A DNA stretch of 64,000 nucleotides, taken from positions 1 to 64,000 of the IMG/VR virus record IMGVR_UViG_3300042506_000430, one strand, 5' to 3'. The position numbers and the translations under genes are program-made. The notes beneath the pieces were generated by a model. It did no database searches. It saw nothing but the letters and a program-made list of their open reading frames with translations, and was not told where the DNA came from. Positions 7,404 to 22,407 of this stretch are shown here, in pieces; position 1 is the stretch's first letter, and the number at the start of each line of letters is the position of its first letter. Origin of the DNA: a virus.

Positions 7404-8165
7404 ATGGAAATAGCAACATTAGGAAAGATATTTGAATTTATCAAAGAAAAGGGTGAACAAAATTTACCATTATTTTGGAAAATGAAAAATAATATGCCAT
7501 TAACAGAAGAAGATTTGAATGTTAAAGGTGATTTGCATTTATCAAATAGAAACATAACCTCACTACCAAAAGGCTTGAAAGTTTATGGGAATATGAGTTT
7601 AGGGTATAGTAAAGTAAGATCATTACCAGAAGGATTAGAAGTTGGCGGTACGTTAAATGTTTCTGATAGTATGATAAGCAAATTACCAAAAGGATTAAAA
7701 GTTGGTGGTTCTCTGGTTATATCTTATACAAGTATAGGAATACTACCAAAAGGATTGGAAGTTGGTGGAGTTATCTATGCAATAAATAGTCATATATTTA
7801 ATATAGACGAAATACCAAAAGGTGTAATAACTGAAGGAATTGTAACTATCAACAAATTAATACTTAATTCAAATTTAACAATAAGTAGTGATTTGCATTT
7901 ACAACATACAAAAATACCCTCATTACCAGAAGGATTGAAAGTTGGGAAGCATTTGTTTTTAGGATATTCAGAAATAACATCCTTACCAGAAGGATTAAAC
8001 GTTGGGGAGCATTTGTTTTTAGGATATTCAAAAATAACCTCATTACCAAAAGGGTTGGAAGTTTTTGGTGGTTTGTATATTAAAAATGCACCATTAACAA
8101 AATACACAGATGAGCAATTAAGAGAAATGGTTAAACCTGGACATATAAATAGGATAATGAGATAA
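7404..8165 (+). CDS. LRR-like repeat protein, paralog 1
   Basis: 253 residues, the longest member of the family. An N-terminal helical cap (residues 1-45, ATLGKIFEFIKEK then WKMKNNMPLTEEDL) is followed by about nine 20-residue repeats of the LPxGLxVxGxLxLxxxxITS type and a C-terminal cap containing PLTKYTDEQLREMVKPG. The repeats resemble the 20-residue bacterial LRR class (YopM/IpaH type), though another beta-solenoid is possible. The middle (about 120-165) is irregular, with a repeat whose leucines are displaced. It begins one base after the protease stop and overlaps the next paralog by one base. Confidence 0.85.
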   Translation: MEIATLGKIFEFIKEKGEQNLPLFWKMKNNMPLTEEDLNVKGDLHLSNRNITSLPKGLKVYGNMSLGYSKVRSLPEGLEVGGTLNVSDSMISKLPKGLKVGGSLVISYTSIGILPKGLEVGGVIYAINSHIFNIDEIPKGVITEGIVTINKLILNSNLTISSDLHLQHTKIPSLPEGLKVGKHLFLGYSEITSLPEGLNVGEHLFLGYSKITSLPKGLEVFGGLYIKNAPLTKYTDEQLREMVKPGHINRIMR

Positions 8166-8566
8166 TGGAAATAGCAACATTAAAAAACATATTTAATTTC
8201 CTTGAAGTAAATGAAAAAAAATTATCCATAAAATGGAAAATGATGAATAAAATCCCCTTTACTAAAGAACAATTATATGTCAAAGGTGATTTGGATTTAC
8301 AAGGGGAAGACATAGAACAATTGCCAGCAGGGTTATATATTAAACGTAATTTATTGTTAAATGCCACACCAATAAAAAAATTACCAAAAGGTTTAAGAGT
8401 TGGTGGTGATTTGCAGTTACAAGATTGTGAAAATTTAAAATCCCTACCAAAAGATTTAAAAGTTCGGGGTAATATATGGCTTGGTGGCACACCATTAGGG
8501 AGAATGTCAGATGAGAAAATATTAAATATGGTAAAACCAGATGGCTATATAGGTAACATATATTAA
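8165..8566 (+). CDS. LRR-like repeat protein, paralog 2
   Basis: 133 residues: the shared helical cap (ATLKNIFNFLEVNEKK), about four repeats and the C-terminal cap, here with an RMSDEKILNMVKPDG variant. The stop of paralog 1 and this ATG share a base (TAATG), so coupling is likely. One of the shortest members; probably the same fold with fewer coils. Confidence 0.82.
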   Translation: MEIATLKNIFNFLEVNEKKLSIKWKMMNKIPFTKEQLYVKGDLDLQGEDIEQLPAGLYIKRNLLLNATPIKKLPKGLRVGGDLQLQDCENLKSLPKDLKVRGNIWLGGTPLGRMSDEKILNMVKPDGYIGNIY

Positions 8567-8567
8567 A

Positions 8568-9158
8568 ATGAAAGAAGAAACATTAGGAAAGATATTTGAA
8601 TTTATCAAAGAAAAGAGCAAACAAAATTTACCATTATTTTGGAAATTGAAAAATGATATACCATTAACAGAAGAAGATTTGACTTTTAAAGGTGATTTAA
8701 ATTTAGAAAATTCAAAAATAACCTCCTTACCAGATGGTTTGAAAGTTGAGGGTGATTTGATGTTAACCTTTTCAGAAATAAGCTCATTACCAGATGATTT
8801 ACAAGTTGGTGGTCATTTAAACATAATTGGTTGTGATGCCATAAACTCATTACCAAAAGGATTAAAAGTTGGTGACAGCATTCAATTATCACCAAAACGA
8901 ATAGTTTCCATTGGGGAAGGATTGTTTGTTGGTGGGGATTTAAATTTATTTAATAGCCAAATAAAATCATTACCCCAAGGAGTTAAAATTGGGGGAGAGT
9001 TAATATTATCCTTTACAAAAATAGAAACATTACCAAAAGGTTTGATAGTTAAAGGTGGTTTGGATATTGCTGGAACACCATTAGAAAAATATTCAGATGA
9101 TGAATTAAGAAAAATGGTTAAACCTGGAGTTATAAAAGGTTCAATAATTAGAGATTAA
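8568..9158 (+). CDS. LRR-like repeat protein, paralog 3
   Basis: 196 residues with the shared N-cap (ETLGKIFEFIKEKSKQ, nearly identical to paralog 1), about seven repeats and the KYSDDELRKMVKPG C-cap. One base separates it from the previous stop. The near-identical N-terminal DNA of paralogs 1 and 3 (about 7420-7530 and 8580-8690) points to duplication within the island. Confidence 0.84.
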   Translation: MKEETLGKIFEFIKEKSKQNLPLFWKLKNDIPLTEEDLTFKGDLNLENSKITSLPDGLKVEGDLMLTFSEISSLPDDLQVGGHLNIIGCDAINSLPKGLKVGDSIQLSPKRIVSIGEGLFVGGDLNLFNSQIKSLPQGVKIGGELILSFTKIETLPKGLIVKGGLDIAGTPLEKYSDDELRKMVKPGVIKGSIIRD

Positions 9159-9187
9159 AAAATTTGATTTTACAAAAAAAACAACTA

Positions 9188-9218
9188 TATTTATACAAAC
9201 AAATAAAAAACAATACCT
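9188..9218 (+). promoter_or_regulatory. Putative late promoter, TATTTATAC core
   Basis: TATTTATAC at 9188-9196, 22 bases upstream of ATG 9219, with an A-rich leader. Confidence 0.45.
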
Positions 9219-9428
9219 ATGGATGAAAAATTCTTTGTTGCCAGATTAACTTTTTCTCTACCTGATGAGAATACTGGTAAAATGAAAAAAGTAAGAGAAG
9301 AGAAATTAGTTAAAGGTTATTCTGTAACAGATGTTGAAGCAAAAGTTACAGAAAAGTATAAAAACTTTTCCCAAGATTGGAGAATAACAGCAGTTTCAGA
9401 ATCAAAAATTGATGAGGTTTTTGTTTAA
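9219..9428 (+). CDS. DUF4494-like small protein
   Basis: 69 residues. Its pattern, a beta-rich start, then KKVREEKLV, S-x-T-D-V-E-A-K, and a closing ITAVSESKIDEVF, matches my recollection of the DUF4494 family, which is common in Bacteroidetes and their phages and has no known function. It has its own promoter-like element and is followed by a strong terminator, so it is probably a single-gene transcript or the end of one. Confidence 0.7.
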   Translation: MDEKFFVARLTFSLPDENTGKMKKVREEKLVKGYSVTDVEAKVTEKYKNFSQDWRITAVSESKIDEVFV

Positions 9429-9447
9429 AACAAATAACTTTTATCGT

Positions 9448-9483
9448 AAACCCCTAGCATAAATAATGTTAGGGGTTTTTTTA
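9448..9483 (+). terminator. Rho-independent terminator
   Basis: AACCCCTA/TAGGGGTT stem extended by CAT/ATG around a short loop, followed by a T tract. Ends the DUF4494-like transcript before the scaffold gene. Confidence 0.88.
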
Positions 9484-9529
9484 TTTTAAAAATAATAATG
9501 ATAATCAGTAACTTTTTTACTTTTTGATA

Positions 9530-9556
9530 TATTTATTATAAAAATAAATAAAAATT
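9530..9556 (+). promoter_or_regulatory. Putative late promoter, TATTTATTA core
   Basis: TATTTATTA at 9530-9538, 18 bases before the scaffold ATG and just after a terminator; an A-rich leader follows. Confidence 0.58.
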
Positions 9557-11341
9557 ATGCAATCTGAAAAAAATTTAGTAGAAGAAGCACTAATTCAAAT
9601 GAAACAAATTGAAGATGTGCTTGCAGAAAACGCAAAAGGAATACTTGCTTCAACAATGAAGGAAGAAATCGAAGAATTAGTTAAAGAATCTTTAAATGAG
9701 CAAGCAGATATTGAAGATGATGAAACTGATTTAGATATGGAAGATGATATGGATATGGAAGATGATATGGATATGGAGGATGATATGGAAGATGATATGG
9801 AAGATGATATGGATATGGAAGATGATATGGATATGGAAGATGATATGGATATGGAAGATGATATGGATATGGAGGATGATGTTATTGATATGAGGGGAGC
9901 ATCACAAAGTGAACTTTTAAAAGTATTTAAAGCAATGGATGATGAAGATGGTATAATTATATCAAAAGATGGTAATGATATCTCATTAACTGATGATGGT
10001 GATGAATATTTAATAAGACTAGGAGAACAAATAGAAGATTTTGATTCAGATATGGGGAAAGGTAAACAATATTCACGTATGGTTCGTCATCTTAGTAATC
10101 AAATGGATGATGGTGATGATGATTTAGAGGATGATTATATCAAGTCAAGTTATGGTGATGAAGAAGATGATGCTCAAGAATATGGTATGAGATATTTTAA
10201 TGACGACGATGAAGAAGGTGATTTTGAACCTTTTGATGACGAAAACGAAGATATTGATGTGGACTATGCTATGAGCAAAAGACTTGGTTTGAAATATTTT
10301 AATGACAACAAAGAAGAAGATGATGATATGGAAGATGATATGGAGTTAGAAGAAGATGATACGCAATCAACAATTGATAAAATTTTTGAAAAAGCAAATA
10401 AACATAGCAATGTTATTTATGAAATAGAAATGGAAGACGAAGAAGAGTTTGATGTAGAAGATGATGGTTATGAGATGGAAGATGAGGATTATGAAATGGA
10501 AGATGATGATTATGAAATGGAAGATGATGAAGATTTTGATTGTTCTAATTTTAGCACTTCAGATTATTTAGCCAAAAATCCAAAAGCAACTATTTCTGAT
10601 GTGTATGATTACTTGAAAGAAAAAGGTTGTTTAAATGGTGGCGATGGTAATGTTGGAGAGAATTATAATTATTTAGGTGAGGCTAAAAAGACTTCCAAAT
10701 TTAAGTACAAGATGGCTAAAAACGGTTTTAATGAAAAAATGAAAGAGGGTCCTAAAAAAATGGGAACAGGTAAAGCCAAATTTAACTATGACAAATCCGC
10801 AGCAAATGTTGATGGGAAAATGAAAAAAGTTACAACTGGTAAAAAACAAGAAACCAAAGAAGCATCAAGAACTTACGGAATGGGAAGTAAAGCAGGTAGA
10901 GGTCTTAGAAAAGGCGTAACACCAAATAGAAATTTACATTTAGAGGCTCTGGAAAACCAAGTTTCTGAATTAAAACAAACAAATAATGATTATAAAAAAT
11001 CATTAAACATTTTTAGAGAGAAACTAAATGATGTTGCAGTTTTCAATGCTAATTTAGCATATGCAACAAGATTGTTTACTGAACACTCAACTACTAAAAA
11101 AGAAAAAATAAACATTTTAAGACGATTTGATAATATTCAGACATTACAAGAATCTAAAAACTTGTATTCTGCTATTAACAATGAATTATCAAAAGATTCA
11201 AATTCGTCTTTAAATGAGTCTGTTAACCGTAAGATTTCAAATGTTGCGTCAACAGGTTCATCAGCTAACTTAATTGAATCAAAAACTTATGAAAATCCTC
11301 AATTTTTGAGGATGAAGGATTTGATGGGTAAATTAGGTTAA
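9557..11341 (+). CDS. Acidic prohead scaffold protein (gp22-like by position)
   Basis: 594 residues. Probable internal scaffold of the prohead, later degraded by the gp21-like protease. Residues about 60-110 are an extreme acidic repeat of MEDDMD units, with further acidic blocks to about residue 330; residues about 370-460 are basic; and the last third is coiled-coil-like (LEALENQVSELKQTNNDYKK, then a LLRRFD-type helix). The identification rests on position between protease and capsid plus charge pattern and coiled coil, as T4 gp22 is itself poorly conserved. The C-terminal helical part resembles scaffold domains in related phages. Confidence 0.75.
   Translation: MQSEKNLVEEALIQMKQIEDVLAENAKGILASTMKEEIEELVKESLNEQADIEDDETDLDMEDDMDMEDDMDMEDDMEDDMEDDMDMEDDMDMEDDMDMEDDMDMEDDVIDMRGASQSELLKVFKAMDDEDGIIISKDGNDISLTDDGDEYLIRLGEQIEDFDSDMGKGKQYSRMVRHLSNQMDDGDDDLEDDYIKSSYGDEEDDAQEYGMRYFNDDDEEGDFEPFDDENEDIDVDYAMSKRLGLKYFNDNKEEDDDMEDDMELEEDDTQSTIDKIFEKANKHSNVIYEIEMEDEEEFDVEDDGYEMEDEDYEMEDDDYEMEDDEDFDCSNFSTSDYLAKNPKATISDVYDYLKEKGCLNGGDGNVGENYNYLGEAKKTSKFKYKMAKNGFNEKMKEGPKKMGTGKAKFNYDKSAANVDGKMKKVTTGKKQETKEASRTYGMGSKAGRGLRKGVTPNRNLHLEALENQVSELKQTNNDYKKSLNIFREKLNDVAVFNANLAYATRLFTEHSTTKKEKINILRRFDNIQTLQESKNLYSAINNELSKDSNSSLNESVNRKISNVASTGSSANLIESKTYENPQFLRMKDLMGKLG
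9733..9885 (+). repeat. Acidic coding minisatellite
   Basis: About ten tandem in-frame units of GATATGGAAGATGAT-like sequence (15 or 12 bases) encode MEDDMD. Array length could change by slippage without a frameshift. Confidence 0.85.
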
Positions 11342-11366
11342 TAAATTAAATAAAAAAAAATAGAAA

Positions 11367-13157
11367 ATGGGAGCATTATTAGAATCAGGTCTTGTTGGTA
11401 ATATTGGGTTGAAACACCTAAAAGTTATCAAAGAAGATACAATTAACAAATGGAATAAATTAGGATTCCTTGAAGGCTTAAAAGGTCATTTAAAAGAGAA
11501 TGTTGCACAGTTATATGAAAACCAAGCATCATATCTTATTAACGAAGCGGCTAGTACATCTGATACTGGTGCGTTTGAAACAGTTGTTTTCCCAATCGTT
11601 AGGAGAGTATTCTCTAAATTATTGGCTAATGATATTGTATCTGTACAGGCAATGAATTTACCAATTGGTAAACTGTTCTTCTTTGTACCTCAAATCCAAG
11701 AAGCAAATTCTGGTGCACACTATTCACCATATGGTGCTCCAGGTGCAGCAGATACTCAAACACCAACTACTGGTTATGGTAGTGGAAAAAATTTATATGA
11801 TAGATTTTATGAAGGTAATGAGCCAAGCTTAAACCCAGAAGGTCTTTATGATTATTCAAAAGGACAATATAGTGCAGTTACTGCAACAGGTACTACAGTT
11901 GTTTGGAGTGATGGTTCATTAGTTACTTCAGGTTATTCAGCAGGTAATTATAGAAGAGTTATACTAGCTTTGACAGGTTTTGGATCTGATGGTGAAGGTA
12001 AATTAATTGGACCTGATGGTCATCCAATGGATAATGAAAGTTTCTTGGCTGGTTTGACTGTTTATGCAAGTACATCAGCAGGTGGTGCATTCTCTGGTGT
12101 TACAACAGCATCTGGACTTGGCAATCCATTATTGTTTAGAGTTGTTACACAGAAATATGCAAAAGGGCTTGTTCAATATGGTTCTGAGAATACAATAACT
12201 TTCCCTAGTAGTAGAACAGGAGGTGGATCATACAATGATTTATCAACACCTGCTGGTGTTGTTTATCTTGAAGTTGATTTACAAAGACCTGCAACAGTTG
12301 GTGCAGATTCATTAGATGGTTACACAGGTTTCACAACATCAATTTCAGGTACAGCCGCAACTGACTTTACAGCAACTTATAGAATTTACAAGAGTTTAGA
12401 ATTTGAAGATAAAATTGGTGAGGTTTCTTTTGATTTACAATCAGTTACTGTTTCAGTTACAGAAAGAAAGTTAAGAGCACAATGGTCACCAGAAATGGCA
12501 CAAGACGTTGCTGCATTCCATAACATTGATGCTGAAGCAGAATTAACTGCTTTATTATCAGAGCAAATTGCAGCTGAGATTGATAGAGAAATTTTAAGAG
12601 ACCTTAGAAAAGGTGCTGCTTGGAATTTACGTTGGGATTACAATGGTTGGAAGAGATTGGGTACAAACGCTATCCCTTACACACAGAAAGACTGGAATCA
12701 AACATTAATCACAACTATTAACCAAGTATCAGCACAAATCCACAAATCAACATTGAGAGGTGGTGCAAACTGGATTGTTGTTTCTTCTGAAGTTAGTGCA
12801 ATTTTTGATGATTTGGAATACTTCCACGTATCAAATGCATCTCCTGACCAAGACCAATACAACATGGGTATTGAAAGAGTTGGTACATTAGCAGGTCGTT
12901 ACCAAGTATATCGTGACCCTTACTTCCCAGCAAACCAAGTGTTAATGGGACACAAAGGAACATCATTATTAGACACTGGTTATATCTATGCACCATATGT
13001 ACCATTACAATTAACACCAACAATGTATAATCCATTCAACTTTACACCAATTAAAGGTATAATGACAAGATATGCTAAAAAACTAGTTAACAACCGTTTC
13101 TACGGTAGAATTACGGTTGATGGTGTTAGAACATTTGACTTACAAGAGTTAAGATAA
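11367..13157 (+). CDS. Major capsid protein (gp23-like)
   Basis: 596 residues. Main shell protein of the head. T4 gp23 hallmarks are visible: the N-terminal prohead segment with ENQASYLINEA, a VFPIVRRVF motif near residues 73-81, QAMNLPIGKLFFF near 94-106, a large Gly/Thr-rich insertion region, then ERKLRAQWSPEMAQD and the C-terminal DxYFP/GYIYAPYVPL segments. The INE|A site at E60 fits the (I/L)xE consensus of gp21 proteases, so the first 60 residues are probably removed. It lies 25 bases after scaffold and ends at a strong terminator. Confidence 0.95.
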   Translation: MGALLESGLVGNIGLKHLKVIKEDTINKWNKLGFLEGLKGHLKENVAQLYENQASYLINEAASTSDTGAFETVVFPIVRRVFSKLLANDIVSVQAMNLPIGKLFFFVPQIQEANSGAHYSPYGAPGAADTQTPTTGYGSGKNLYDRFYEGNEPSLNPEGLYDYSKGQYSAVTATGTTVVWSDGSLVTSGYSAGNYRRVILALTGFGSDGEGKLIGPDGHPMDNESFLAGLTVYASTSAGGAFSGVTTASGLGNPLLFRVVTQKYAKGLVQYGSENTITFPSSRTGGGSYNDLSTPAGVVYLEVDLQRPATVGADSLDGYTGFTTSISGTAATDFTATYRIYKSLEFEDKIGEVSFDLQSVTVSVTERKLRAQWSPEMAQDVAAFHNIDAEAELTALLSEQIAAEIDREILRDLRKGAAWNLRWDYNGWKRLGTNAIPYTQKDWNQTLITTINQVSAQIHKSTLRGGANWIVVSSEVSAIFDDLEYFHVSNASPDQDQYNMGIERVGTLAGRYQVYRDPYFPANQVLMGHKGTSLLDTGYIYAPYVPLQLTPTMYNPFNFTPIKGIMTRYAKKLVNNRFYGRITVDGVRTFDLQELR

Positions 13158-13181
13158 TCAATTTTATATTGATATAATAGG

Positions 13182-13212
13182 AAGGGTTGCATTTTTTTGC
13201 AACCCTTTTTTT
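13182..13212 (+). terminator. Rho-independent terminator after capsid gene
   Basis: A perfect 10-bp stem (AAGGGTTGCA with TGCAACCCTT) and 6-base T loop are followed by a T tract. Confidence 0.92.
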
Positions 13213-13221
13213 ATTTGCATA

Positions 13222-13241
13222 TATTTATTAATAAAAATTTT
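13222..13241 (+). promoter_or_regulatory. Putative late promoter, TATTTATTA core
   Basis: TATTTATTA at 13222-13230, 11 bases before ATG 13242, immediately after the capsid terminator. Confidence 0.58.
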
Positions 13242-13595
13242 ATGGAAAATAAGCCATCATTTTTTAATGAAGATTTAAGAGTTTGGTTTGGTGATAAGAA
13301 AAAACCAAAAGGTAGCAATCAACCCAAAGGTCCTTGGGTTAATATATGTAGAAAAGATTCAAATGGTAAGCACCCCCCCTGTGGCAGAGAATCTGATGAT
13401 AAGGGTGCATATCCTAAATGTAAGGCGGCTGGTGTTGCTAGTAAGATGAGTGATGCTGAAAAGAAGTCAGCTTGTACAAAGAAAAGAGCGGCTGAAAAAA
13501 AGAATCCAAAATCTGGAACGGGCAATAAACCAACAATGGTTACAAAGGAAAGTTTAATAAGAATTATTGAAGAGTTTTTAATTCATAATCATTAG
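13242..13595 (+). CDS. Small basic Cys-containing phage protein
   Basis: 117 residues from ATG 13242; an upstream in-frame ATG at 13197 lies inside the terminator and is unlikely to be used. A short acidic N-terminus precedes a compact module with GPWVNICRK, HPPCGRE, YPKCKAAG and SACTKKRAAEKKNP, four Cys in spaced positions and many basic residues, then a C-terminal helix. Such modules are widespread in small phage proteins of unknown function; Zn or nucleic-acid binding is a guess. Its last 32 bases overlap the end of the convergent gene on the other strand. Confidence 0.78.
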   Translation: MENKPSFFNEDLRVWFGDKKKPKGSNQPKGPWVNICRKDSNGKHPPCGRESDDKGAYPKCKAAGVASKMSDAEKKSACTKKRAAEKKNPKSGTGNKPTMVTKESLIRIIEEFLIHNH

Positions 13596-14472: not shown

Positions 14473-14514
14473 AATGTTTTTAAATTTATATGATATTATC
14501 ATATCTTTGTTAAC

Positions 14515-14901
14515 CTAAAAGGCTTCAACCTTAATTAAAAAGTTTTCTTTTAGATAATTTGACAACTCATAAAAGGTATCAAATTTTGATTGCATCTTAT
14601 CATCAAACCTGCTGATAATATCAATATGTGTTTGATGGTGATTAATAAAAAACTTGAAAAGTTCATATTCATAAATCATATGAATTTCTCTATCATATAT
14701 AATGATAAAGATATTCTCATCTTCAAGATAAATTAATCTTTCTGGCGATTTTGATGAATAAGCAAGTTTGGCATCTGGATTGTCCAGCATTTTAAAGATA
14801 ATATTTTTACACCTAACTTCATCCTCTGTTGGGTCAGTTAATGCCAAGATGTTTTCTTTAAATGAATTAACTAGGGGGGTCAACCAAGATTTAATGTTCA
14901 T
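14515..14901 (-). CDS. Unknown small phage protein
   Basis: 128 residues, acidic, with a beta-rich middle (RLIYLEDENIFIIIYDREIHMIY) flanked by helices. No motif recognised. It has a promoter-like element just upstream and is followed 42 bases later by the next minus-strand gene. It lies just downstream of the LRR-like array but is not related to it. Confidence 0.7.
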   Translation of the reverse strand: MNIKSWLTPLVNSFKENILALTDPTEDEVRCKNIIFKMLDNPDAKLAYSSKSPERLIYLEDENIFIIIYDREIHMIYEYELFKFFINHHQTHIDIISRFDDKMQSKFDTFYELSNYLKENFLIKVEAF

Positions 14902-14920
14902 AGTTTTTTTATTACAAATA
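14902..14920 (-). promoter_or_regulatory. Putative late promoter variant, TATTTGTAA core
   Basis: Minus-strand TATTTGTAA at 14912-14920 followed by an A tract, 10 bases before ATG 14901. One mismatch to the element seen elsewhere. Confidence 0.4.
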
Positions 14921-14934
14921 TACTACAAGTTGAA

Positions 14935-15501
14935 TTAAATAGCAAATTCTGTTTCATCCCAATCAGGATCCTCATTTAATATAATACCTTTAATATATCC
15001 AGGTTTAACCATTTTTTTTAATTGATTTTCAGTGTATTTGGTTAATTTTGTGTAAGTTATGTTTATTCCATCATCAACTTTCAATCCTTTTGGTAATGAT
15101 TGTAATTTGTAACAATGATTTAAATATAATGTACCATTAACTTTTAATCCTTCTGGTAATGATTCAAGTTTTTCACAGCCATATAAATCCAAATCACCCC
15201 CAACTTTCAATAGTTCTGGTAATGATTTTATATTTGAATGTTCTAAAGATAACTCGCCCCCAACTTCCAAGTCTTCTGGTAATGAAGTTATTTTTGAATA
15301 ATCTAAATTCAAATTGCCACTAACTTTCAATCCTTCTGGTAATGAAGTTATTTTAAAATTTGATAAATCCAAATCATCATTAACAATTAAATCTTCTTTT
15401 GTTAATGGTGAACCATTTGTTATTTTCCATAAAAATGGAATTTTTGTACCATCTAACTTTTCAATAAAATTAAATATATTCTTTAGTGTTTCTTTTTCCA
15501 T
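14935..15501 (-). CDS. LRR-like repeat protein, paralog 4
   Basis: 188 residues: N-cap (ETLKNIFNFIEKLDG, WKITNGSPLTKEDL), about six repeats including two 21-residue cysteine-type coils (LYGCEKLES and LNHCYKLQS), and a C-cap KYTENQLKKMVKPG. Unlike its siblings it carries an acidic C-terminal extension (EDPDWDETEFAI). It is the last gene of the array in transcription order, joined to paralog 5 by the TAATG overlap. Confidence 0.84.
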   Translation of the reverse strand: MEKETLKNIFNFIEKLDGTKIPFLWKITNGSPLTKEDLIVNDDLDLSNFKITSLPEGLKVSGNLNLDYSKITSLPEDLEVGGELSLEHSNIKSLPELLKVGGDLDLYGCEKLESLPEGLKVNGTLYLNHCYKLQSLPKGLKVDDGINITYTKLTKYTENQLKKMVKPGYIKGIILNEDPDWDETEFAI

Positions 15502-15905
15502 TATCTAATTATATTATTTATATATCCAGGATTAACCATTTGCCTTAATTCCTCAGTTGAATATTTTGTTAATGGTGTATTTTTAATAAACAAACGACCC
15601 CAAACTTTCAACCCTTTTGGTAATGATGTTATATTTGAATGTCCCAAATCCAAATCCTCCCCAACTTTTAATCCTTCTGGTAATGATTGTATATTTTTAC
15701 AACCATATAAACTTAAAATATCCTCAACGTTCAATCCATCTGGTAATGATTCAATATCTGTTTCTGTTAAATCCAAATCCCCTTCAACAAATAACTCTTC
15801 ATCTGTTAATGGTTCATTATTCATTAATTTCCACATAAATGGTTTATCCTTATTTTCTTCTTCTTCAAGGAATGTAAATATCTTTTTTAGTGTTTCTTTT
15901 TCCAT
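15501..15905 (-). CDS. LRR-like repeat protein, paralog 5
   Basis: 134 residues, about four repeats, one of them of the 21-residue LYGCKNIQS type. N-cap is ETLKKIFTFLEEEENKDKP; C-cap is KYSTEELRQMVNPG. One-base TAATG overlaps at both ends. A short member of the family. Confidence 0.83.
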   Translation of the reverse strand: MEKETLKKIFTFLEEEENKDKPFMWKLMNNEPLTDEELFVEGDLDLTETDIESLPDGLNVEDILSLYGCKNIQSLPEGLKVGEDLDLGHSNITSLPKGLKVWGRLFIKNTPLTKYSTEELRQMVNPGYINNIIR

Positions 15906-16552
15906 TATCTTTCTATATTTCCAAGTATAAATCCTGGTTTAACCATTTTTCTTAATTCATTATCTGAAAATTTTGCTAACCCAGAGTCGTGAATGGCCAA
16001 ATTACCATAAACCTCCAACCCTTTTGGTAATGAAGTTAAATTTTTGCAACGCATTAAATCTAACAATCTATTAACTTTTAATCCTTTTGGTAAAAATCCT
16101 ATCTCTGAATCCTCCAAAGATAATATACCAACTTCCATTCCTTCTGGTAATGATTCCAAATATGGGGTGGTATTTAAATTTAATTCACCTTCAATTTTTA
16201 ATCCTTTTGGTAATGATTGTATTTGTGTATATGATAAATCCAAATCTAATTTAACTTTTAATCCTTTTGGTAATTTTCTTATTTCTGTATAATTTAAAAC
16301 TAAATGCCCTCCAACTTCCAATCCTTCTGGTAATGATTTAATATCTGAATTTTGTAAAAACAAATCACCTTCAACTTTCAATCCTTCTGGCAATTCTTCT
16401 ATCTCTAAATCTGATAAATTCAAATCACCTTTAACATGTAAATCATCTTCTGTGAATGGAAAACCATTTGACCATTTCCACCTAAGTGGCGTATTCCTAT
16501 TATCCTTCTTTTCAAGGAAATTAAATATCTTCTTTAATGTTTCTTTTTCCAT
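15905..16552 (-). CDS. LRR-like repeat protein, paralog 6
   Basis: 215 residues, about eight repeats, one of them shortened by about a residue (MEVGILSLEDSEIGF). N-cap WKWSNGFPFTEDDL is shared with paralog 7, suggesting these two are close relatives. C-cap KFSDNELRKMVKPG. TAATG overlap with neighbours on both sides. Confidence 0.84.
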   Translation of the reverse strand: MEKETLKKIFNFLEKKDNRNTPLRWKWSNGFPFTEDDLHVKGDLNLSDLEIEELPEGLKVEGDLFLQNSDIKSLPEGLEVGGHLVLNYTEIRKLPKGLKVKLDLDLSYTQIQSLPKGLKIEGELNLNTTPYLESLPEGMEVGILSLEDSEIGFLPKGLKVNRLLDLMRCKNLTSLPKGLEVYGNLAIHDSGLAKFSDNELRKMVKPGFILGNIER

Positions 16553-17016
16553 TATCTATATATATATCTATTTAAAAAACTAGGCTCAACCATTTTTATT
16601 AATTCATCATCTGAAAATTTTGCTAATGGTGTTCCACCAATAAACAAATTTTGCCCAACTTTCAATCCTTTTGGTAATGATGCTATTTCAGAGTAGGATA
16701 AATCCAAATCAACCCCAACTTCTAATCCTTCTGGCATAGAAGTTATTCTTGTGTTTGATAAATCTAAATGTCTCCCAACTTTCAATCCTTTTGGTAATGA
16801 TTTAATATCAGAAAATTGTAAATACAAGTCACCTTCAACATATAAATTATCTGGCAATGTTTCTATCCCTGAATCTGAAAAATCCAAATCACCTTTAATA
16901 TGCAAATCATCTTCTGTTAATGGTTCACCACTTGACCATTTCCATAATAATGGTGCTCTTATTTCATCATTCTTTTCAAGAAATTTAAATATCTTCTTTA
17001 ATGTTTCTTTTTCCAT
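16552..17016 (-). CDS. LRR-like repeat protein, paralog 7
   Basis: 154 residues, about five regular repeats, N-cap WKWSSGEPLTEDDL and C-cap KFSDDELIKMVEPS. The upstream gene is not a paralog here, but the bases just before this start (AGATAATGG) still match the array junction, as if an earlier paralog end had been cut back. Confidence 0.84.
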   Translation of the reverse strand: MEKETLKKIFKFLEKNDEIRAPLLWKWSSGEPLTEDDLHIKGDLDFSDSGIETLPDNLYVEGDLYLQFSDIKSLPKGLKVGRHLDLSNTRITSMPEGLEVGVDLDLSYSEIASLPKGLKVGQNLFIGGTPLAKFSDDELIKMVEPSFLNRYIYR

Positions 17017-17019
17017 TAT

Positions 17020-17442
17020 CTATCCTTTCTTCCACTTTCCACCCAATTTCTTATACCTTTTTGCCGCAGCACCATTACAATATGCGCTTGGGCATACTTT
17101 ATACCTAGACCTTGCCCAACTCAAACATTGACTCCATAACTTGGGATTTGTTGGTTTATTCTTTTTTTCCTTTGCTTCTGTTATGTTCTGGCTATCCCTA
17201 TTTTCAAATTCATTCATCATAAAATCAAAAACTTGATCCAAGTTTTCTTTTGCAACTGTCACATGGTCATCAGCCCAATCATGGCCATTGGTCAACAATT
17301 CATTAATTTCATCAGGTTGAAATTCAAGCAATAATTCACATTGTCTTTTAATTTGTTTTAAGTTTCCAAAAAACATATAATTTTCTGTTGCTTGCTCATT
17401 TATTGCATTCTTAACAATTTTTTTAATTACTGGATGTATCAT
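17020..17442 (-). CDS. Unrelated gene interrupting the array; phage basic C-terminal module
   Basis: 140 residues. The first part (about residues 18-75, YMFFGNLKQIKRQCELLLEF then NGHDWADDHVTVAKENLDQVFDFM) resembles a helical module recurrent in T4-like phage proteins of unknown function. The C-terminal part (from about residue 97; NPKLWSQCLSWARSRYKVCPSAYCNGAAAKRYKK) resembles a short basic module also recurrent in phage and algal-virus proteins. It has its own promoter-like element at 17456-17464 and ends in a TAG that overlaps the array junction. Function unknown; possibly virion-packaged or DNA-binding. Confidence 0.78.
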   Translation of the reverse strand: MIHPVIKKIVKNAINEQATENYMFFGNLKQIKRQCELLLEFQPDEINELLTNGHDWADDHVTVAKENLDQVFDFMMNEFENRDSQNITEAKEKKNKPTNPKLWSQCLSWARSRYKVCPSAYCNGAAAKRYKKLGGKWKKG

Positions 17443-17464
17443 ATCTTATTTTTTATTATAAATA
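17443..17464 (-). promoter_or_regulatory. Putative late promoter, TATTTATAA core
   Basis: Minus-strand TATTTATAA at 17456-17464, 13 bases before ATG 17442, with an A-rich leader; placed in the only sizeable gap inside the array. Confidence 0.52.
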
Positions 17465-17522
17465 TCATTATTCTTTATTTTGATTATGGCTCTCATATTT
17501 TGATTTTAAGGGACTTTTTGTT

Positions 17523-17586
17523 TTAGCCTATTACTATGTCATCTTTATTAAAATCTGCTGTTGTGGTTAAATTGTATGTGGTTATA
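17523..17586 (-). pseudogene. Possible gene-tail remnant
   Basis: In the gap between paralog 8 and the 17020 gene, one minus-strand frame reads about 20 residues (YNLTTTADFNKDDIVIG) to a TAA at 17523. The composition looks like the end of a structural protein rather than random A/T-rich sequence, but the fragment is short and unrecognised. Confidence 0.2.
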
Positions 17587-18121
17587 TCCTAATTATTCTA
17601 CCTATACGCCCAGGTTTAACCATTTCTCTTAATTCAGCATCTGAAAATTTGTCTAAACTATCTCCAACACTCACGGCTAAATATCCATTAACTTCCAATC
17701 CTTTTGGTAATCTTTTTATTGGTGTATCCATTATTGATAACCAAAGGTCAATTACTAGCCCTTCTGGTAATGAAGTTATTTTTGTATTATGCAAATACAA
17801 AGAAGCACCAATTTTAATATCATTTGGTATGTTTTTTATAATTGAATGCGATAACTCCAGAGAACCATCAACTTTTAACCCTTTTGGTAATTCTTCTATT
17901 TTTGAAAATCTAGTAATCATTCTACCTTTAACTTCCAAATTATCTGGTAATGATTTTAAAGTTGAATCTGTTAAATCTAAATCACCATTAACAATTAAAT
18001 CTTCTTTTGTTAGGGGATCACCAAGTTTTAATTTCCAAATAAAGGTATCTCTATCTTTATGTTTTTTGTTTTCTTTCTTTTCAAGGAAATCAAATATATT
18101 TTTTATTGCTTCTTTTTCCAT
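17582..18121 (-). CDS. LRR-like repeat protein, paralog 8
   Basis: 179 residues, about six repeats, several degenerate (MITRFSKIEE, IPNDIKIGASLYLHNTKITS, LWLSIMDTPIKR). The N-cap (EAIKNIFDFLEKKENKKHKDRD) is identical to that of paralog 9, marking a recent duplication. The IPNDIKIG coil is shared with paralog 13. C-cap KFSDAELREMVKPG. Stop TAA at 17582 faces the 139-base gap. Confidence 0.84.
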   Translation of the reverse strand: MEKEAIKNIFDFLEKKENKKHKDRDTFIWKLKLGDPLTKEDLIVNGDLDLTDSTLKSLPDNLEVKGRMITRFSKIEELPKGLKVDGSLELSHSIIKNIPNDIKIGASLYLHNTKITSLPEGLVIDLWLSIMDTPIKRLPKGLEVNGYLAVSVGDSLDKFSDAELREMVKPGRIGRIIRI

Positions 18122-18729
18122 TATCTAATTATTTGCTCCTTTATAAATCCAGGTTTAACCATATTTCTTAATTCTTCATCAGAAAATTTTACTAATGGTG
18201 ATCCACTTATAATTAAAATCCCCCTAACTTTCAACCCTTTTGGTAATGATGTTAAACTTGTGCAATTTTCTAAATACAAATCACGGCCAACTTCCAATCC
18301 TTCTGGCAAGGATGTTAAACTTGTGCAATTTTCTAAATCTAAATTATGCGCAACTTTCAATCCTTTTGGTAAAGATATTAAATTTGTGGAATTTTCTAAA
18401 TATAAAGACGCTCCAAGTTCTAATCCTCTTGGCAGTGAAATTAAATCTTCACAACCTTCTAAATCTAAACGACCCCCAACTTTTAAGTTATCAGGTAATG
18501 ATTTAATAGATGAATAATTTAAAATCAAATAACCACCAACTTTCAACCCATCTGGTAATGAGGTTATTTTTGAATATGATAAATCCAAATTACCTTTTAC
18601 ATTTAACTCTTCTTCTGTTATTGGTTCATCAAATTTTAATTTCCAAATAATGCTATCCCTATCTTTATGTTTTTTATTTTCTTTCTTTTCAAGGAAATCA
18701 AATATATTTTTTATTGCTTCTTTTTCCAT
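18121..18729 (-). CDS. LRR-like repeat protein, paralog 9
   Basis: 202 residues, about seven repeats; four consecutive coils are of the 21-residue type with C or S in the turn (EGCEDLIS, ENSTNLIS, ENCTSLTS twice), a local expansion of that subtype. The N-cap is identical to paralog 8. C-cap KFSDEELRNMVKPG. TAATG overlaps with both neighbours. Confidence 0.85.
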   Translation of the reverse strand: MEKEAIKNIFDFLEKKENKKHKDRDSIIWKLKFDEPITEEELNVKGNLDLSYSKITSLPDGLKVGGYLILNYSSIKSLPDNLKVGGRLDLEGCEDLISLPRGLELGASLYLENSTNLISLPKGLKVAHNLDLENCTSLTSLPEGLEVGRDLYLENCTSLTSLPKGLKVRGILIISGSPLVKFSDEELRNMVKPGFIKEQIIR

Positions 18730-19208
18730 TATCTAATTATTTTACCATTTATAAACCCATCTGGTTCAACCATTTCTCTTATTTTTTCATCTGAAAGTTT
18801 TGCTAATGGAGTTTTTACAATATGTAAATTACGTTCAACTTTTAAACCTTTTGATAATGTTTCTATATCTGAATATGTTAAATCTAAATCGCGACCAACA
18901 TATAAATCACCTGGCAAGGATTTGAAACTTGTCCATTCAAAATTCAAATCACCCTCAACAAATAATTTTTCTGGGAATGTTTTTAAACTTGAGAACCGAA
19001 AATCAGCATTTCCTATAACTTTTAACCCTTTTGGTAAATGTTGTATATTTATGCCAGATATATCCAAATCGCCTCTAACAATTAAATCTTCTTTTGTTAA
19101 TGGTTCATTAAACATAAATTTCCACCTTAAAGTTCCTTTGTTTTTATGTTTTTTATTGTCTTCTTTTTCAAGAAAATCAAGTATATTTTTTAGTGTTTCT
19201 TTTTCCAT
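18729..19208 (-). CDS. LRR-like repeat protein, paralog 10
   Basis: 159 residues, about five repeats with more aromatic residues than usual (ADFRFSSLKT, LNFEWTSFKS). N-cap ETLKNILDFLEKEDNKKHKN; C-cap KLSDEKIREMVEPDG, similar to paralog 2. One-base overlaps at both ends. Confidence 0.83.
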   Translation of the reverse strand: MEKETLKNILDFLEKEDNKKHKNKGTLRWKFMFNEPLTKEDLIVRGDLDISGINIQHLPKGLKVIGNADFRFSSLKTFPEKLFVEGDLNFEWTSFKSLPGDLYVGRDLDLTYSDIETLSKGLKVERNLHIVKTPLAKLSDEKIREMVEPDGFINGKIIR

Positions 19209-19678
19209 TATCTAATTATATTTCCTTTAAATGAACCATTATTTAAATTTTTATTTCTTCTTATTTCAGCATCTGTATATTTTTTGGCAAGGAAGGATTC
19301 TCCTATATATAAATTACCACCAACATATAAATTTTTTGGGATTTCTTCTATATCTGAATGTCTAAAATACAAATCACCCCCAACATATAAATTGTCTGGT
19401 AATGATTCTATATTTGTATGGGATAAGTTAAAACTATCCTTAACATATAACCCTTCTGGTAATGAGTTTATTTCTGATCCCAACAACCACAATTTACCTT
19501 CAACTCTCATCCCATTAGGTAATGAGGTTATAGTTGTAAATTCCAAATTTAAATTGCCTTTTATATTTAAATCCTCTTTTGTTAGTTCATTATTTACCCA
19601 TTTCCATAAAAATGGTGTTTTGATATCATCATTTTCTTCAAGGAAATCAAATATTCTTTTTAATGTTTCTTTTTCCAT
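19208..19678 (-). CDS. LRR-like repeat protein, paralog 11
   Basis: 156 residues, about five repeats. The C-cap differs from most of the family (AKKYTDAEIRRNKNLNNGS) and is shared almost exactly with paralog 12, as are the last two coils (LPDNLYVGGDL, IPKNLYVGG). The N-terminal halves of the two genes differ, so the C-terminal half looks recently duplicated or exchanged. Confidence 0.84.
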   Translation of the reverse strand: MEKETLKRIFDFLEENDDIKTPFLWKWVNNELTKEDLNIKGNLNLEFTTITSLPNGMRVEGKLWLLGSEINSLPEGLYVKDSFNLSHTNIESLPDNLYVGGDLYFRHSDIEEIPKNLYVGGNLYIGESFLAKKYTDAEIRRNKNLNNGSFKGNIIR

Positions 19679-20151
19679 TATCTAATTATATTTCCTTTAA
19701 ATGAACCATTATTTAAATTTTTATTTCTTCTTATTTCACCATCTGTATATTTTTTGGCGAGGGGGGTCTCTTCTATATCTAATTCACCACCAACGTATAA
19801 ATTTTTTGGTATTTCTCCTATATTTGAATATTTAAACCATAAATCACCCCCAACATATAAATTGTCTGGTAATGATTCAATATATGTATGTGATACATCC
19901 AAACTACCCTTAACATATAGCCCTTCTGGTAATGTTTTTATTGCTGATGCAAATAATGACAAATCACCTTGAACTCTCAATCCCTCTGGTAATGAGGTTA
20001 TTGCTGAATGATTTAAAATTAAATCCCCATCAAAATTTAATTCATCTTCTGTAAATGGGTGATTAATTTTTACTTTATAAGCAAAAGGTTTTGGTCTATT
20101 TTCCTCTTTCTCAAGGAATTCAATTATTTTTTTTAATGTTTCTATTTCCAT
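19678..20151 (-). CDS. LRR-like repeat protein, paralog 12
   Basis: 157 residues, about five repeats, C-terminal half near-identical to paralog 11. The N-cap (IETLKKIIEFLEKEENRPKPFAYKVK) instead resembles paralog 14 (FAYKVKNNEPLTEKDL). This gene therefore looks like a chimera of two family lineages. TAATG overlaps at both ends. Confidence 0.84.
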   Translation of the reverse strand: MEIETLKKIIEFLEKEENRPKPFAYKVKINHPFTEDELNFDGDLILNHSAITSLPEGLRVQGDLSLFASAIKTLPEGLYVKGSLDVSHTYIESLPDNLYVGGDLWFKYSNIGEIPKNLYVGGELDIEETPLAKKYTDGEIRRNKNLNNGSFKGNIIR

Positions 20152-20690
20152 TACTCTCTTAATATTCCTTTTATAAATCCAGGTTTAACCATTTCTTTTA
20201 ATTCAGCATTAGAAAATTTGGATAAACTATCATTACTATTTAAAACTAAATAACCCTTAATTATCAATCCTTTTGGTAATGAAGTTATTTTTGTTTTCTG
20301 CAAATACAAAGAACCACCAATTTCAATATCATCAGGTATATTTTTTATTTTTGAGTTCCTTAAATTCAAATTACCACCAACTTTCAATCCTTTTGGTAGT
20401 GATTCTATATTTGAACTTGCTAAAGATAAATAATCCCCAACTTCTAACCCTTCTGGTAATGAGACTATTGCCGAACAACCCATTAAATTAACCCAACCCT
20501 TAACTCTTAATCCTTCTGGTAATGATGTTACTTTTGTATATGATAATTCCAAATTACCATTAATATTTAATTCATCATATGTTAATTCATTAAATATAAC
20601 CTTCCATTTAAAACTACCTTTATCTCGGGGCATTTTATTTTCTTCCTTTTCAAGAAAATCAAGTATTTTTTTAAATGTTTTATTTTCCAT
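20151..20690 (-). CDS. LRR-like repeat protein, paralog 13
   Basis: 179 residues, about six repeats. It shares an IPDDIEIGGSLYLQKTKITS coil and a following irregular coil with paralog 8, and lacks part of the usual N-cap (NELTYDELNINGNL). C-cap KFSNAELKEMVKPG. It starts three bases after the TAG stop of paralog 14, still within the AGATAATGG junction. Confidence 0.84.
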   Translation of the reverse strand: MENKTFKKILDFLEKEENKMPRDKGSFKWKVIFNELTYDELNINGNLELSYTKVTSLPEGLRVKGWVNLMGCSAIVSLPEGLEVGDYLSLASSNIESLPKGLKVGGNLNLRNSKIKNIPDDIEIGGSLYLQKTKITSLPKGLIIKGYLVLNSNDSLSKFSNAELKEMVKPGFIKGILRE

Positions 20691-20693
20691 TAT

Positions 20694-21107
20694 CTACATA
20701 TTTCCTATTATTTCTCCTATATAACCATTTGGCTTTATCATATTCAATAATTCATTGTCTGAAATTTCTGTAAATTTTGTTCTGTAAATATATAAACTAC
20801 CCCCAACTTTCAAGTCTTTTGGTAATGAGGTTAAACCCCAACACCCAGCTAACCATAAATTACCCTCAACTTCCAATCCTTCTGGTAATGTTTTTATATC
20901 TGAGTCTGTTAAATCTAAAACACGCCCAACTTTCAATCCTTCTGGTAATGAAGTTATTTTAAAATTTGATAAATCCAAATTACCTTCAATATTTAAATCT
21001 TTTTCTGTTAAGGGTTCATTATTTTTTACTTTATAAGCAAAAGGTTTTTTTCTATTTTCTTCCTTCTCAAGGAATTCAAGTATTCTTTTTAATGTTTCTT
21101 CTTTCAC
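20694..21107 (-). CDS. LRR-like repeat protein, paralog 14 (GTG start)
   Basis: 137 residues, about four repeats. It starts with GTG at 21107, overlapping the TGA stop of paralog 15 by four bases (GTGA), the one junction in the array that departs clearly from the TAATG pattern. N-cap KEETLKRILEFLEKEENRKKPFAYKVK resembles paralog 12. C-cap variant SDNELLNMIKPNG. Confidence 0.83.
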   Translation of the reverse strand: MKEETLKRILEFLEKEENRKKPFAYKVKNNEPLTEKDLNIEGNLDLSNFKITSLPEGLKVGRVLDLTDSDIKTLPEGLEVEGNLWLAGCWGLTSLPKDLKVGGSLYIYRTKFTEISDNELLNMIKPNGYIGEIIGNM

Positions 21108-21700
21108 AATCTTGATATTTTTTCTTTTATAAATCCAGGATAAACCATTTCTCTTAATTGTCCATCTGTGTATTTTCGTAATGGGGTATTTTCTATATAC
21201 AATACCCCCCTAACTTCTAACCCTTTTGGTAATGATGTTATTTTTGTATCTTTTAAATTCAAATATTTACCAACTTTTAATCCTTCTGGTAGTGAAATTA
21301 AATCTTTGCAAGAATATAAATCCAAAAAACCCCTAATTTTTAAGTCATTAGGTAATGAACTAATGGATGTATAATTTAAATGCAAATTACCACCAACTTT
21401 CAATCCTTTTGGTAATGAGGTTATTTTTGAATATGCTAAAAACAAATGCTTCCCAACTTTTAATCCTTCTGGTAATGATTGTATTCTTGAAAATGTTAAA
21501 ATTAAGTCCCCCTCAACTTTTAACCCTTCTGGTAATGATTCTATACTTGAGTACATTAAATTCAAATCATCTTTTATATTTAATTCATCTTTTGTTAATG
21601 GTTTATTAAATAATAACTTCCACCTTAAATTATTTTTAGGTATTACCCCTTCCTTTTCTTCAAGAAAATCAAGTATTTTTTCAATTGTTTCTTTTTCCAT
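21104..21700 (-). CDS. LRR-like repeat protein, paralog 15
   Basis: 198 residues, about seven regular repeats, N-cap ETIEKILDFLEEKEG and C-cap KYTDGQLREMVYPG. It overlaps paralog 16 by TAATG and paralog 14 by GTGA. The LPEGLKVGKHLFLAYSKITS coil is close to coils in paralog 1 of island 1, linking the two islands. Confidence 0.85.
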   Translation of the reverse strand: MEKETIEKILDFLEEKEGVIPKNNLRWKLLFNKPLTKDELNIKDDLNLMYSSIESLPEGLKVEGDLILTFSRIQSLPEGLKVGKHLFLAYSKITSLPKGLKVGGNLHLNYTSISSLPNDLKIRGFLDLYSCKDLISLPEGLKVGKYLNLKDTKITSLPKGLEVRGVLYIENTPLRKYTDGQLREMVYPGFIKEKISRL

Positions 21701-22407
21701 TATCTAACTATTTTTCCTTTTATAAATCCAGGTTGAATCATCTTTCTTAATCTATAATTACTAATTTCATCTAAATGGGAAAGATTCAACATTATAGATC
21801 CATAAACTTTCAATCCTTTTGGTAATGAGGTTAAATCTGTTAGTCTTAAATCCAAATCACCACCAACTTTTAAACCTTCTGGCAATGATTGTATATTTTT
21901 ACAACCAAATAACACCAAATCTTTCCTAACTTCAAGTCCTTCTGGTAATGAAGTTATTTTTGTATTATTTAAAACTAAATGCCCTCCAACTTTCAATCCT
22001 TCTGGTAATGAAGTTATTTTTGTATTATTTAAATACAAATCCCTACCAACTTTCAATCCTTTTGGTAGCAAGGTTATATCTGTATTAGATGAAAACAAAT
22101 CACCACCAACTTCCAATCCTTCAGGTAATGATGTTATTTTTGTTGAACCTAAATTCAAATTACCCCCAACTTTCAAACCTTCTGGCAATGAGGTTATTTT
22201 TGATCTTCTTAAATCGAAATTACCACCAACTTTCAAACCTTCTGGTAATGAGGTTATTGTTGTTTCATAAAACCACAAATTACCTATAACATCTAAATCT
22301 TCTTTGGTTATTGGCTCATTATTTAATATTTTCCATTTAAATGGTGCTCTATGTTCTCCTTTCTCTTCAAGGAATTCAAATATTCTTTTTAATGTTTCTT
22401 TTTCCAT
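21700..22407 (-). CDS. LRR-like repeat protein, paralog 16 (first of array)
   Basis: 235 residues, about nine very regular repeats close to LPEGLKVGGxLxLxxTKITS; several coils are nearly identical in DNA, so internal duplication is recent. N-cap ETLKRIFEFLEEKGEHRAP; the C-cap is diverged (LDEISNYRLRKMIQPG). It is the most upstream array member, 7 bases after the stop of the structural gene 22415-23917, and the junction sequence TAATTAGATAATGG is still present there. Confidence 0.86.
   Translation of the reverse strand: MEKETLKRIFEFLEEKGEHRAPFKWKILNNEPITKEDLDVIGNLWFYETTITSLPEGLKVGGNFDLRRSKITSLPEGLKVGGNLNLGSTKITSLPEGLEVGGDLFSSNTDITLLPKGLKVGRDLYLNNTKITSLPEGLKVGGHLVLNNTKITSLPEGLEVRKDLVLFGCKNIQSLPEGLKVGGDLDLRLTDLTSLPKGLKVYGSIMLNLSHLDEISNYRLRKMIQPGFIKGKIVR

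Follow-up and report, generated by a model that had tools for sequence, protein, structure and literature searches.

Type III effectors such as IpaH, SspH and SlrP join a leucine-rich repeat (LRR) domain to a separate effector domain, and the variable lymphocyte receptors of jawless fish, which are secreted or surface anchored, are LRR solenoids whose variability lies on the concave sheet. Among viruses, large LRR families are known from giant viruses and single LRR proteins from phages. Cafeteria roenbergensis virus (CroV) encodes about 70 LRR proteins of the FNIP/FGxxFN type, and other giant viruses have such families too; in the cited passages they are proposed to be agonists or antagonists of cellular factors, directed against the host antiviral response, or to have a structural role (PMC9525666). 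The proteins of a vibriophage (PMC10945359), of a phage with a BspA-type protein (PMC7765460) and of Edwardsiella phage Edno5 are likewise LRR proteins, but as far as the cited accounts go they are reported as lone genes; the single Edno5 gene has cIII and RecT genes in its neighbourhood. Here we describe a family of LRR genes found in a viral DNA of 64,000 nucleotides (the window), which is bases 1-64000 of the 80,371-base IMG/VR record IMGVR_UViG_3300042506_000430 (G000). We found no phage clade with dozens of LRR cassettes in the open-access literature searched.

The CroV LRR family is the closest kind to the phage cassettes. It too is a large virus-encoded family, and the cited text describes it as free of associated enzymatic activities (PMC9525666). 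It differs in belonging to a eukaryotic giant virus and, according to the same text, in having a 22-residue FGxxFN repeat with a double Phe spine and caps with little homology. The phage proteins have 20- or 21-residue repeats without FG..FN and share their caps, and do not belong to the FNIP/FGxxFN group. Whereas the large viral LRR families reported so far are those of eukaryotic giant viruses, the present one is found in tailed phages, where LRR genes take up about 16% of a phage contig.

The LRR family: extent, predicted fold and domain make-up

A sequence-only reading of the window had listed sixteen LRR genes, three on the plus strand and thirteen on the minus strand (14935-22407), with a common N-terminal cap (N-cap) and C-terminal cap (C-cap). 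All sixteen are where it placed them, and alignment at both caps bears out their common build. The two islands are real, but the count is too low, as the family continues past the window: a third island of eight LRR genes lies on the plus strand at 76169-80371 of the record, its last gene being cut by the contig end. A search with R16, the gene at 21700-22407 (minus strand, 235 residues), found 29 matching stretches in the record, none with an internal stop, and a profile of the N-cap recognises at least 24 LRR genes there. Five further contigs (G001, G002, G016, G017 and G018) are from the same virus, with 99.96-100% identity over the overlaps; the profile counts 33 LRR genes in G001 (112,963 bases), 26 in G002, 23 in G016, 17 in G017 and 16 in G018. 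Since G001 and G002 overlap by 78.6 kb, they jointly hold at least 36 LRR genes in six islands, over a summed length of about 141.6 kb. G017 has one extra gene in an array of the window; this is probably a split gene, because G017 differs by one single-base indel in an LRR gene. In relatives the profile counts 17 genes (G006), 19 (G008), 23 (G003), 9 (G007) and, in the 270,075 bases of G004, 41 genes in nine islands.

By Pfam, the protease and terminase of the phage are of T4 type. The best named matches of the capsid protein, all below 60% identity, are Microcystis phage Mel-JY01, Flavobacterium phage immuto and Rhodothermus phage RM378, and the host is likely a member of the Bacteroidota. 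Among 50,697 phage records, R16 matched a single phage, Edwardsiella phage Edno5 (two records at 46.6% identity), and a second family member with a looser limit added three more weak records; the phage collection yielded no isolate of this clade. A scan for LRR loci gave 280 stretches, from the best 80 of which 71 loci were kept; all 71 share non-LRR DNA with this one clade. A cellular origin of the N-capped family was considered and rejected: a scan of genome contigs gave nine loci, which by eye encode LRR proteins of another build, without the N-cap.

Over 23 members, the consensus of the N-cap is MExETLKxIFxFLExxE...WKxxNNxPLTKEDLNVxGDL and that of the C-cap KYSDxELRxMVKPGFIKGxIIR; between them lie repeats of 20 or 21 residues with the consensus LPxGLxVGGxLxLxx(T/S/C)xIxS. 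Anchoring each repeat at LP or a variant of LP, we counted 81 repeats in the window by hand, against 79 by a pattern search, with three to eight in each protein. The earlier figures of about a hundred repeats, and four to nine per protein, hold when the half repeats at the ends of the N-caps are included (about 97 in total).

An AlphaFold2 model of R16, built with 23 family sequences, has a mean pLDDT of 95.1 and a pTM of 0.87. The predicted chain starts with two helices, continues as a solenoid to which each repeat contributes two short strands, and ends in helices. The same elements were predicted for a 449-residue member from locus L032 with 17 parsed repeats (pLDDT 93.4). Structure prediction, which had been suggested for all sixteen proteins, thus gives a confident LRR solenoid for R16 and one L032 member, and the common capped solenoid is predicted to be kept across the family. 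The top solved match to R16 is chain 0 of 8z5u, an LRR protein of the polar flagellar motor (Foldseek E 4.0e-6; VIA Z 24.2, r.m.s. deviation 1.8, 175 residues, 36% identity; phmmer 5.1e-27). This chain, also present in 8z5w and 8z60, belongs to the rod-export complex of the motor and has the same type of repeat as R16. It differs in being a 199-residue part of a bacterial machine, and the match begins at residue 52 of R16, leaving the phage N-cap unmatched. The next fold matches have Z values of at most 17.4 and include a Leptospira LRR protein, SHOC2, XopL, IpaH, SlrP and SspH1. R16 belongs to the LRR superfamily by this comparison, as 724 of the 725 aligned Foldseek candidates have Z values of 2 or more and most of the rows listed are named LRR proteins.

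The conserved segment of LRRs has been given as LxxLxLxxNxL, with Asn, Thr, Ser or Cys at the N position, in the section cited (PMC2946307). The phage repeats keep the LxL, the N-type position (S/T/C) and the I/L that follows, while the place of the first L is mostly taken by Gly, preceded by Val. No Pfam LRR model scored above its cut-off in the ten of the sixteen window proteins scanned; the nearest were LRR_1 (18 of the required 20.6 bits) and LRR_4 (19.2 of 27). We place the family among the LRR proteins because the R16 fold and PDB sequence searches match LRRs. The likeness to YopM and IpaH that the sequence-only reading had seen is confined to the repeats, and the flagellar motor protein is a better match among solved structures; the short bacterial LRRs of SspH1, SlrP, IpaH and XopL match R16 more weakly in both sequence and fold. 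The phage family also differs from these effectors in having no room for an effector domain and does not belong with them: in five proteins, the NCBIfam models of type III effectors reached 9-33 bits, against cut-offs of at least 450.

We extended the analysis of domain make-up to 256 distinct proteins from 692 complete genes of overlapping loci, dropping 36 incomplete genes. All 256 have parsed repeats, and in 255 of them the longest stretches outside the repeats are 74 residues at the N-terminus, 60 in the middle and 63 at the C-terminus. These lengths leave no room for a further domain, and fusion to structural or catalytic domains was rejected on length. By hydropathy alone, none of the 256 proteins has a membrane-like segment; a signal-peptide-like N-terminus was not seen in 254, and the other two have a borderline hydrophobic N-terminus. 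Membership of a known defence family was rejected, with no PADLOC match in the five of sixteen window proteins scanned.

Repeat variability and turnover of cassettes

Leaving out irregular units, our parser extracted 92 units from the 24 genes, 70 of them 20 and 22 of them 21 residues long, and no two are alike. In the 20-residue units, positions 10, 12, 14, 15 and 17 have entropies of 3.0-3.5 bits, against a background of 3.70, and positions 1, 2, 4, 5, 7, 11, 13, 16 and 18 have 0.1-1.1 bits. The 21-residue units (n=22) reach 2.6-3.2 bits at positions 10, 12, 14, 15, 17 and 18, and the pattern seen in the 20-residue units recurs in 516 distinct 20-mers from the 256 proteins. The variable positions flank the LxL strand, which in the predicted solenoid forms the presumed concave face of the LRR. 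Tyr, Phe, Trp and His make up 17.9% of residues at the face, compared with 3.1% at other exposed positions.

The concentration of variability on a presumed concave face resembles that of the variable lymphocyte receptors, which are among the 50 best fold matches, with position 19 and the way the face was assigned as caveats (see below). The phage proteins differ in lacking a membrane-like segment (all 256) and in having at most a borderline hydrophobic N-terminus (two proteins), both judged by hydropathy. The receptors are, moreover, somatic and found in animals according to the part of the paper cited (PMC9525666), whereas the phage genes change by exchange between genomes.

To compare rates, we used 50 gene pairs of 80-97% identity, taking each gene once and only 20-residue units. 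The ratio of nonsynonymous to synonymous rates (omega) is 0.89 at the five face positions (bootstrap 0.60-1.34), 0.64 at other exposed positions (0.46-0.87) and 0.17 at structural positions; the nonsynonymous rate at the face is 1.24-2.00 times that at other exposed positions. Over all positions, omega is 0.58 for the LRR genes, compared with 0.14-0.20 for core genes (pooled, 6-17 genes, five comparisons). The N-cap (0.66) and C-cap (0.67) are alike, and the idea that the N-cap is a strongly conserved docking site was discarded for this reason. On these rates, variation of the face appears to be tolerated or favoured, that is, under relaxed or diversifying evolution.

The gene content of the islands varies between phages. 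A capsid scan, in which the best 80 loci were considered, yielded 76 loci with capsid identities of 80% or less (L085-L160), and in none of them does the stretch examined contain an N-cap gene. In 44 measurable outgroup loci, the DUF4494 gene starts 4-45 nt past the stop of the protease gene, leaving the site of the first island empty; in the closer clade, this junction contains up to five LRR genes. Array variation among related phages had been proposed as a check, and their gene content does vary. Loci L060, L067 and L073 are 96.6-98.4% identical from terminase to protease, yet have different LRR sets there. Conversely, L018, with DNA that is 79.8% identical from terminase to protease, encodes a protein 99% identical to R02; since the L018 protease is 98% identical too, the exchange may have extended into neighbouring genes.

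Only eight of the 23 complete LRR genes of G000 have a near-full-length counterpart in G006. For these, the synonymous divergence (dS) is about 0.10, compared with 0.49 in core genes, although the choice of counterparts by similarity biases dS downwards. Four other relatives provide counterparts for one or two of the 23. For a wider count, we took 38 distinct proteins, setting aside all same-virus records and excluding alleles from the paralogs. A counterpart of at least 75% identity exists in another phage for 28 of them and one of at least 90% for 17, while none has a paralog of its own above 70%; with a 96% cut, 37 of the 38 are closer to another phage than to their own paralogs, often by a small margin. 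These figures argue for an exchanged pool of cassettes, and against recent local tandem duplication as its main source.

Traces of recombination are seen within the genes as well. Among 159 pairs, 20 combine N-cap DNA that is at least 96% alike with repeat regions below 75% identity over aligned columns, 15 of the 20 being in the slot of R03; the repeat regions of R19 and R22 are 75% identical over aligned columns. In 31 pairs the caps match (93% or more) and the number of repeats differs; the 25 of these that were listed all belong to a single slot, that of a long gene, with length differences made up of 60- and 63-base units. A long gene of this kind, with 13-17 parsed repeats and a repeat number that changes between close phages, occupies a slot in the head island of L060, L067, L065, L061, L032 and L182; it is not present in the window.

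Even contigs of the same virus differ mainly in LRR genes. They have 28 sites that differ from the window, 20 of them in LRR genes, which make up 15-25% of the span: 14 of 14 in G018, 5 of 6 in G001, 1 of 1 in G017 and none of none in G002. The 14 differences of G018 cluster closely in two N-cap tracts: one of 8 bases in R06, and one at the 5' end of R08, where the window sequence equals that of R09. These tracts look like gene conversion when the sequences are compared, and no exact donor was found for those of G018. A diversity-generating retroelement seems unlikely on the records searched, with RVT_1 in none of these eight, which are possibly fragments, and in 3 of 14 genomes used as positive controls. 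Taken together, these comparisons show gain, loss and exchange of cassettes within a single clade of phages.

Islands, neighbours and other genes

The first island lies between head genes on the plus strand. It follows the prohead protease gene (6701-7402; Pfam Peptidase_S77, 2.5e-24), R01 starting 1 nt past its end, and is followed by the DUF4494 gene (9219-9428, plus strand; Pfam DUF4494, 1.1e-9). It consists of R01 (7404-8165, 253 residues, its solenoid irregular in the central part), R02 (8165-8566, 133 residues) and R03 (8568-9158, 196 residues). The second island, on the minus strand, lies between capsid-side and probable tail genes. In order of position, it comprises R04 (14935-15501, 188 residues, with a C-terminal extension), R05 (15501-15905, 134 residues), R06 (15905-16552, 215 residues) and R07 (16552-17016, 154 residues), and then R08 (17582-18121, 179 residues), R09 (18121-18729, 202 residues, with many 21-residue repeats), R10 (18729-19208, 159 residues), R11 (19208-19678, 156 residues, its last residues the same as those of R12), R12 (19678-20151, 157 residues), R13 (20151-20690, 179 residues), R14 (20694-21107, 137 residues, with a GTG start), R15 (21104-21700, 198 residues) and R16. 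Ten adjacent pairs of LRR genes in the window overlap by one base, stop to start (TAATG).

The thirteen genes had been taken for one array. The array is present, but it is broken between R07 and R08 by one unrelated conserved gene (17020-17442, minus strand). In most of the measured outgroup loci, its homologue and that of the gene at 22415 are direct neighbours. The latter gene (22415-23917, minus strand) borders the second island. Of the neighbours named by the sequence-only reading, the protease and DUF4494 genes are confirmed by Pfam, while the gene at 22415, whose product has no PHROG or Pfam match, is probably a tail gene by its position only.

To the left of the third island lies a divergently read gene for an iron/manganese superoxide dismutase (L009 13435-14136; Pfam 2.4e-40) and then, two genes left of the island, a head-tail-adaptor-like gene; to its right, in G001, are a gene for an SNF2-like helicase and, about 4.6 kb on, the tail sheath gene. 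The island at 8292-11744 of G001 has lysis-type genes on one side and peptidase and ClpA-like genes on the other; a ClpA-like AAA+ ATPase (L161 12603-14603, in G001; phrog_4871, 4.2e-228) is encoded one gene away from the seven-gene LRR island and may be a partner of its products. Of two small islands of G002, one follows a gene that adjoins an endolysin gene, and the other has neighbours without a family match, with a protease gene about 0.8 kb off. In G004, thymidylate kinase and RNA ligase genes flank an island of ten LRR genes, and another island is near an endolysin gene. The islands therefore occur outside the head and tail modules in the same virus and in G004, and neither a restriction to these modules nor the special role given to them by the sequence-only reading can be upheld.

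The islands belong to several transcription units. A TA..TTTG promoter pattern precedes 6 of the 95 gene starts of the window record, compared with 6.27 expected at random. The motif TATAAATA, which we take to resemble the T4 late promoter, lies upstream of 8 of the 95 starts, compared with 1.06 at random, including those at 28060, 37179, 70785 and 76136. It does not argue for late promoters in front of the islands, because all three LRR cases, including R16, lie in the coding end of the preceding gene.

Several other genes of the phage deserve mention. An outer-membrane beta barrel of 1114 residues with a carboxypeptidase-regulatory-like domain (L009 5312-8656, record 67312-70656, minus strand; Pfam OMP_b-brl_4, 1.7e-49) is present in three of eight records searched, which are fragments: G000, G001 and, at 85%, the relative G004. 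A phage-encoded beta barrel is unusual for a phage and might alter host receptors. Beside it (L009 3593-5256) we recognised by eye an S-adenosylmethionine synthetase and a DoxX/MauE-like protein, for which Pfam MauE stays under its cut-off. A large cluster at 28797-53000 of the window contains, by eye, nucleotide-sugar, glycosyltransferase, methyltransferase and beta-ketoacyl synthase III-like genes, and may build or alter a surface glycan. Two tandem repeats were also noted: nearly two copies of a 111-bp unit (89% match) at 113-323, inside an open reading frame at the contig start, and an acidic 18-bp repeat of the DMEDDM type at 9734-9880, within the open reading frame at 9557-11341, where a scaffold gene is expected.

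Possible roles of the LRR proteins

The sequence-only reading had proposed a binding repertoire. A family of LRR proteins with a variable face and a varying gene content is supported; the expansion is not of the invariant kind without surface variation that would speak against such a repertoire, as the face varies and the gene content differs between relatives. The emphasis on head and tail is not supported. The explanation we tentatively prefer is that the proteins are cytoplasmic, stoichiometric binders of varied host proteins, mostly those of defence and takeover; compartment, targets and purpose are what we infer. The genes would form a repertoire of standalone LRR binding proteins, each folding alone in the host cytoplasm and using its concave face to bind one or a few proteins stoichiometrically. 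The targets would be mostly host proteins, above all those concerned with defence and host takeover, and variety would be selected because targets differ between host strains. A more far-reaching form, which we think rather unlikely, is a clade-wide recombining pool of antibody-like binders, of which each genome would hold a changing sample of dozens and whose faces would be diversified and traded against defences. In a bolder version, the common caps may let a phage machine, such as the ClpA-like ATPase adjacent to an island, act on the captured proteins.

Several observations weigh against the preferred explanation. The face positions were assigned from the repeat pattern and DSSP, not from accessibility, and position 19, which is no predicted face position, evolves as fast as the face (0.109). 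Omega at the face exceeds that at other exposed positions in only 93.4% of bootstraps, several of the 50 pairs share one gene slot and are not fully independent, and positive selection is not proven because the interval for the face includes 1. Two LRR genes compared with G008 have a pooled omega of 0.20. Within the same virus, G016 differs from the window at seven bases, none in LRR genes, one of the G001 differences sits at the end of the window record, and assembly errors among similar cassettes could mimic the N-cap tracts. At least two of the six islands are in the head and capsid-tail regions, and the third is near head-tail-adaptor-like and tail sheath genes. The silence of PADLOC, for the five proteins scanned, carries no information on targets.

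A rival explanation is that the products are virion proteins, decorating the head or tail, or packaged and ejected like the T4 internal proteins, which would bind surface or cytoplasmic targets of the host on entry. R01 starts directly after the protease gene, islands 1 and 2 are in head and capsid-tail regions, the third has its adaptor-like neighbour and, farther off, the tail sheath gene, and two further islands are next to genes of lysis type, which are presumably late. According to the section cited (PMC10945359), the tail module of a vibriophage from coral mucus encodes a variable LRR-like protein. We nevertheless consider this unlikely. Islands also lie between lysis-type and peptidase/ClpA-like genes and, in G004, between thymidylate kinase and RNA ligase genes, and the proteins are not fused to structural domains. 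Internal or ejected head proteins of the T4 type are packaged via a cleaved targeting peptide, and no such cleavage motif was seen by eye in the N-caps. Our search for signs of virion decoration found nothing specific: the proteins have no anchor domain and, in 254 of 256, no signal-peptide-like N-terminus.

Action on co-infecting phages or other mobile elements, including superinfection control, would agree with the frequent co-infection by relatives that cassette exchange suggests, and with the finding that the 71 loci kept are all in one clade. It seems improbable to us, as hydropathy indicates no association with membrane or envelope and no exclusion or immunity gene was recognised among the island neighbours scanned. 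We are equally doubtful of a scaffolding role, in which the proteins would bind each other or phage proteins and so line or organise a compartment for replication or a site of assembly; the same option has been proposed for the CroV LRR proteins, in the passages cited (PMC9525666), but a gene set that changes between close phages and variable faces fit changing foreign targets better. Finally, the cassettes could be genomic parasites or products of neutral amplification, spreading by homologous recombination at the shared caps with little use to the phage. The TAATG junctions, the shared N-caps with dissimilar repeats (20 of 159 pairs, 15 in one slot) and the loose constraint indicated by an omega of 0.58 agree with this, but the frames are intact, with no internal stop in the 29 matches of the record, structural positions are constrained, and about 16% of a contig is a heavy load; we regard this, too, as improbable.

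If the proteins do bind host defences, the pool would serve as a library of natural binders and would chart the defences of those hosts. It would be a case of diversification through the exchange of cassettes, in genomes in which no diversity-generating retroelement was found, and, if the explanation of a recombining pool of binders is true, the family would be a viral counterpart of immune-receptor repertoires.

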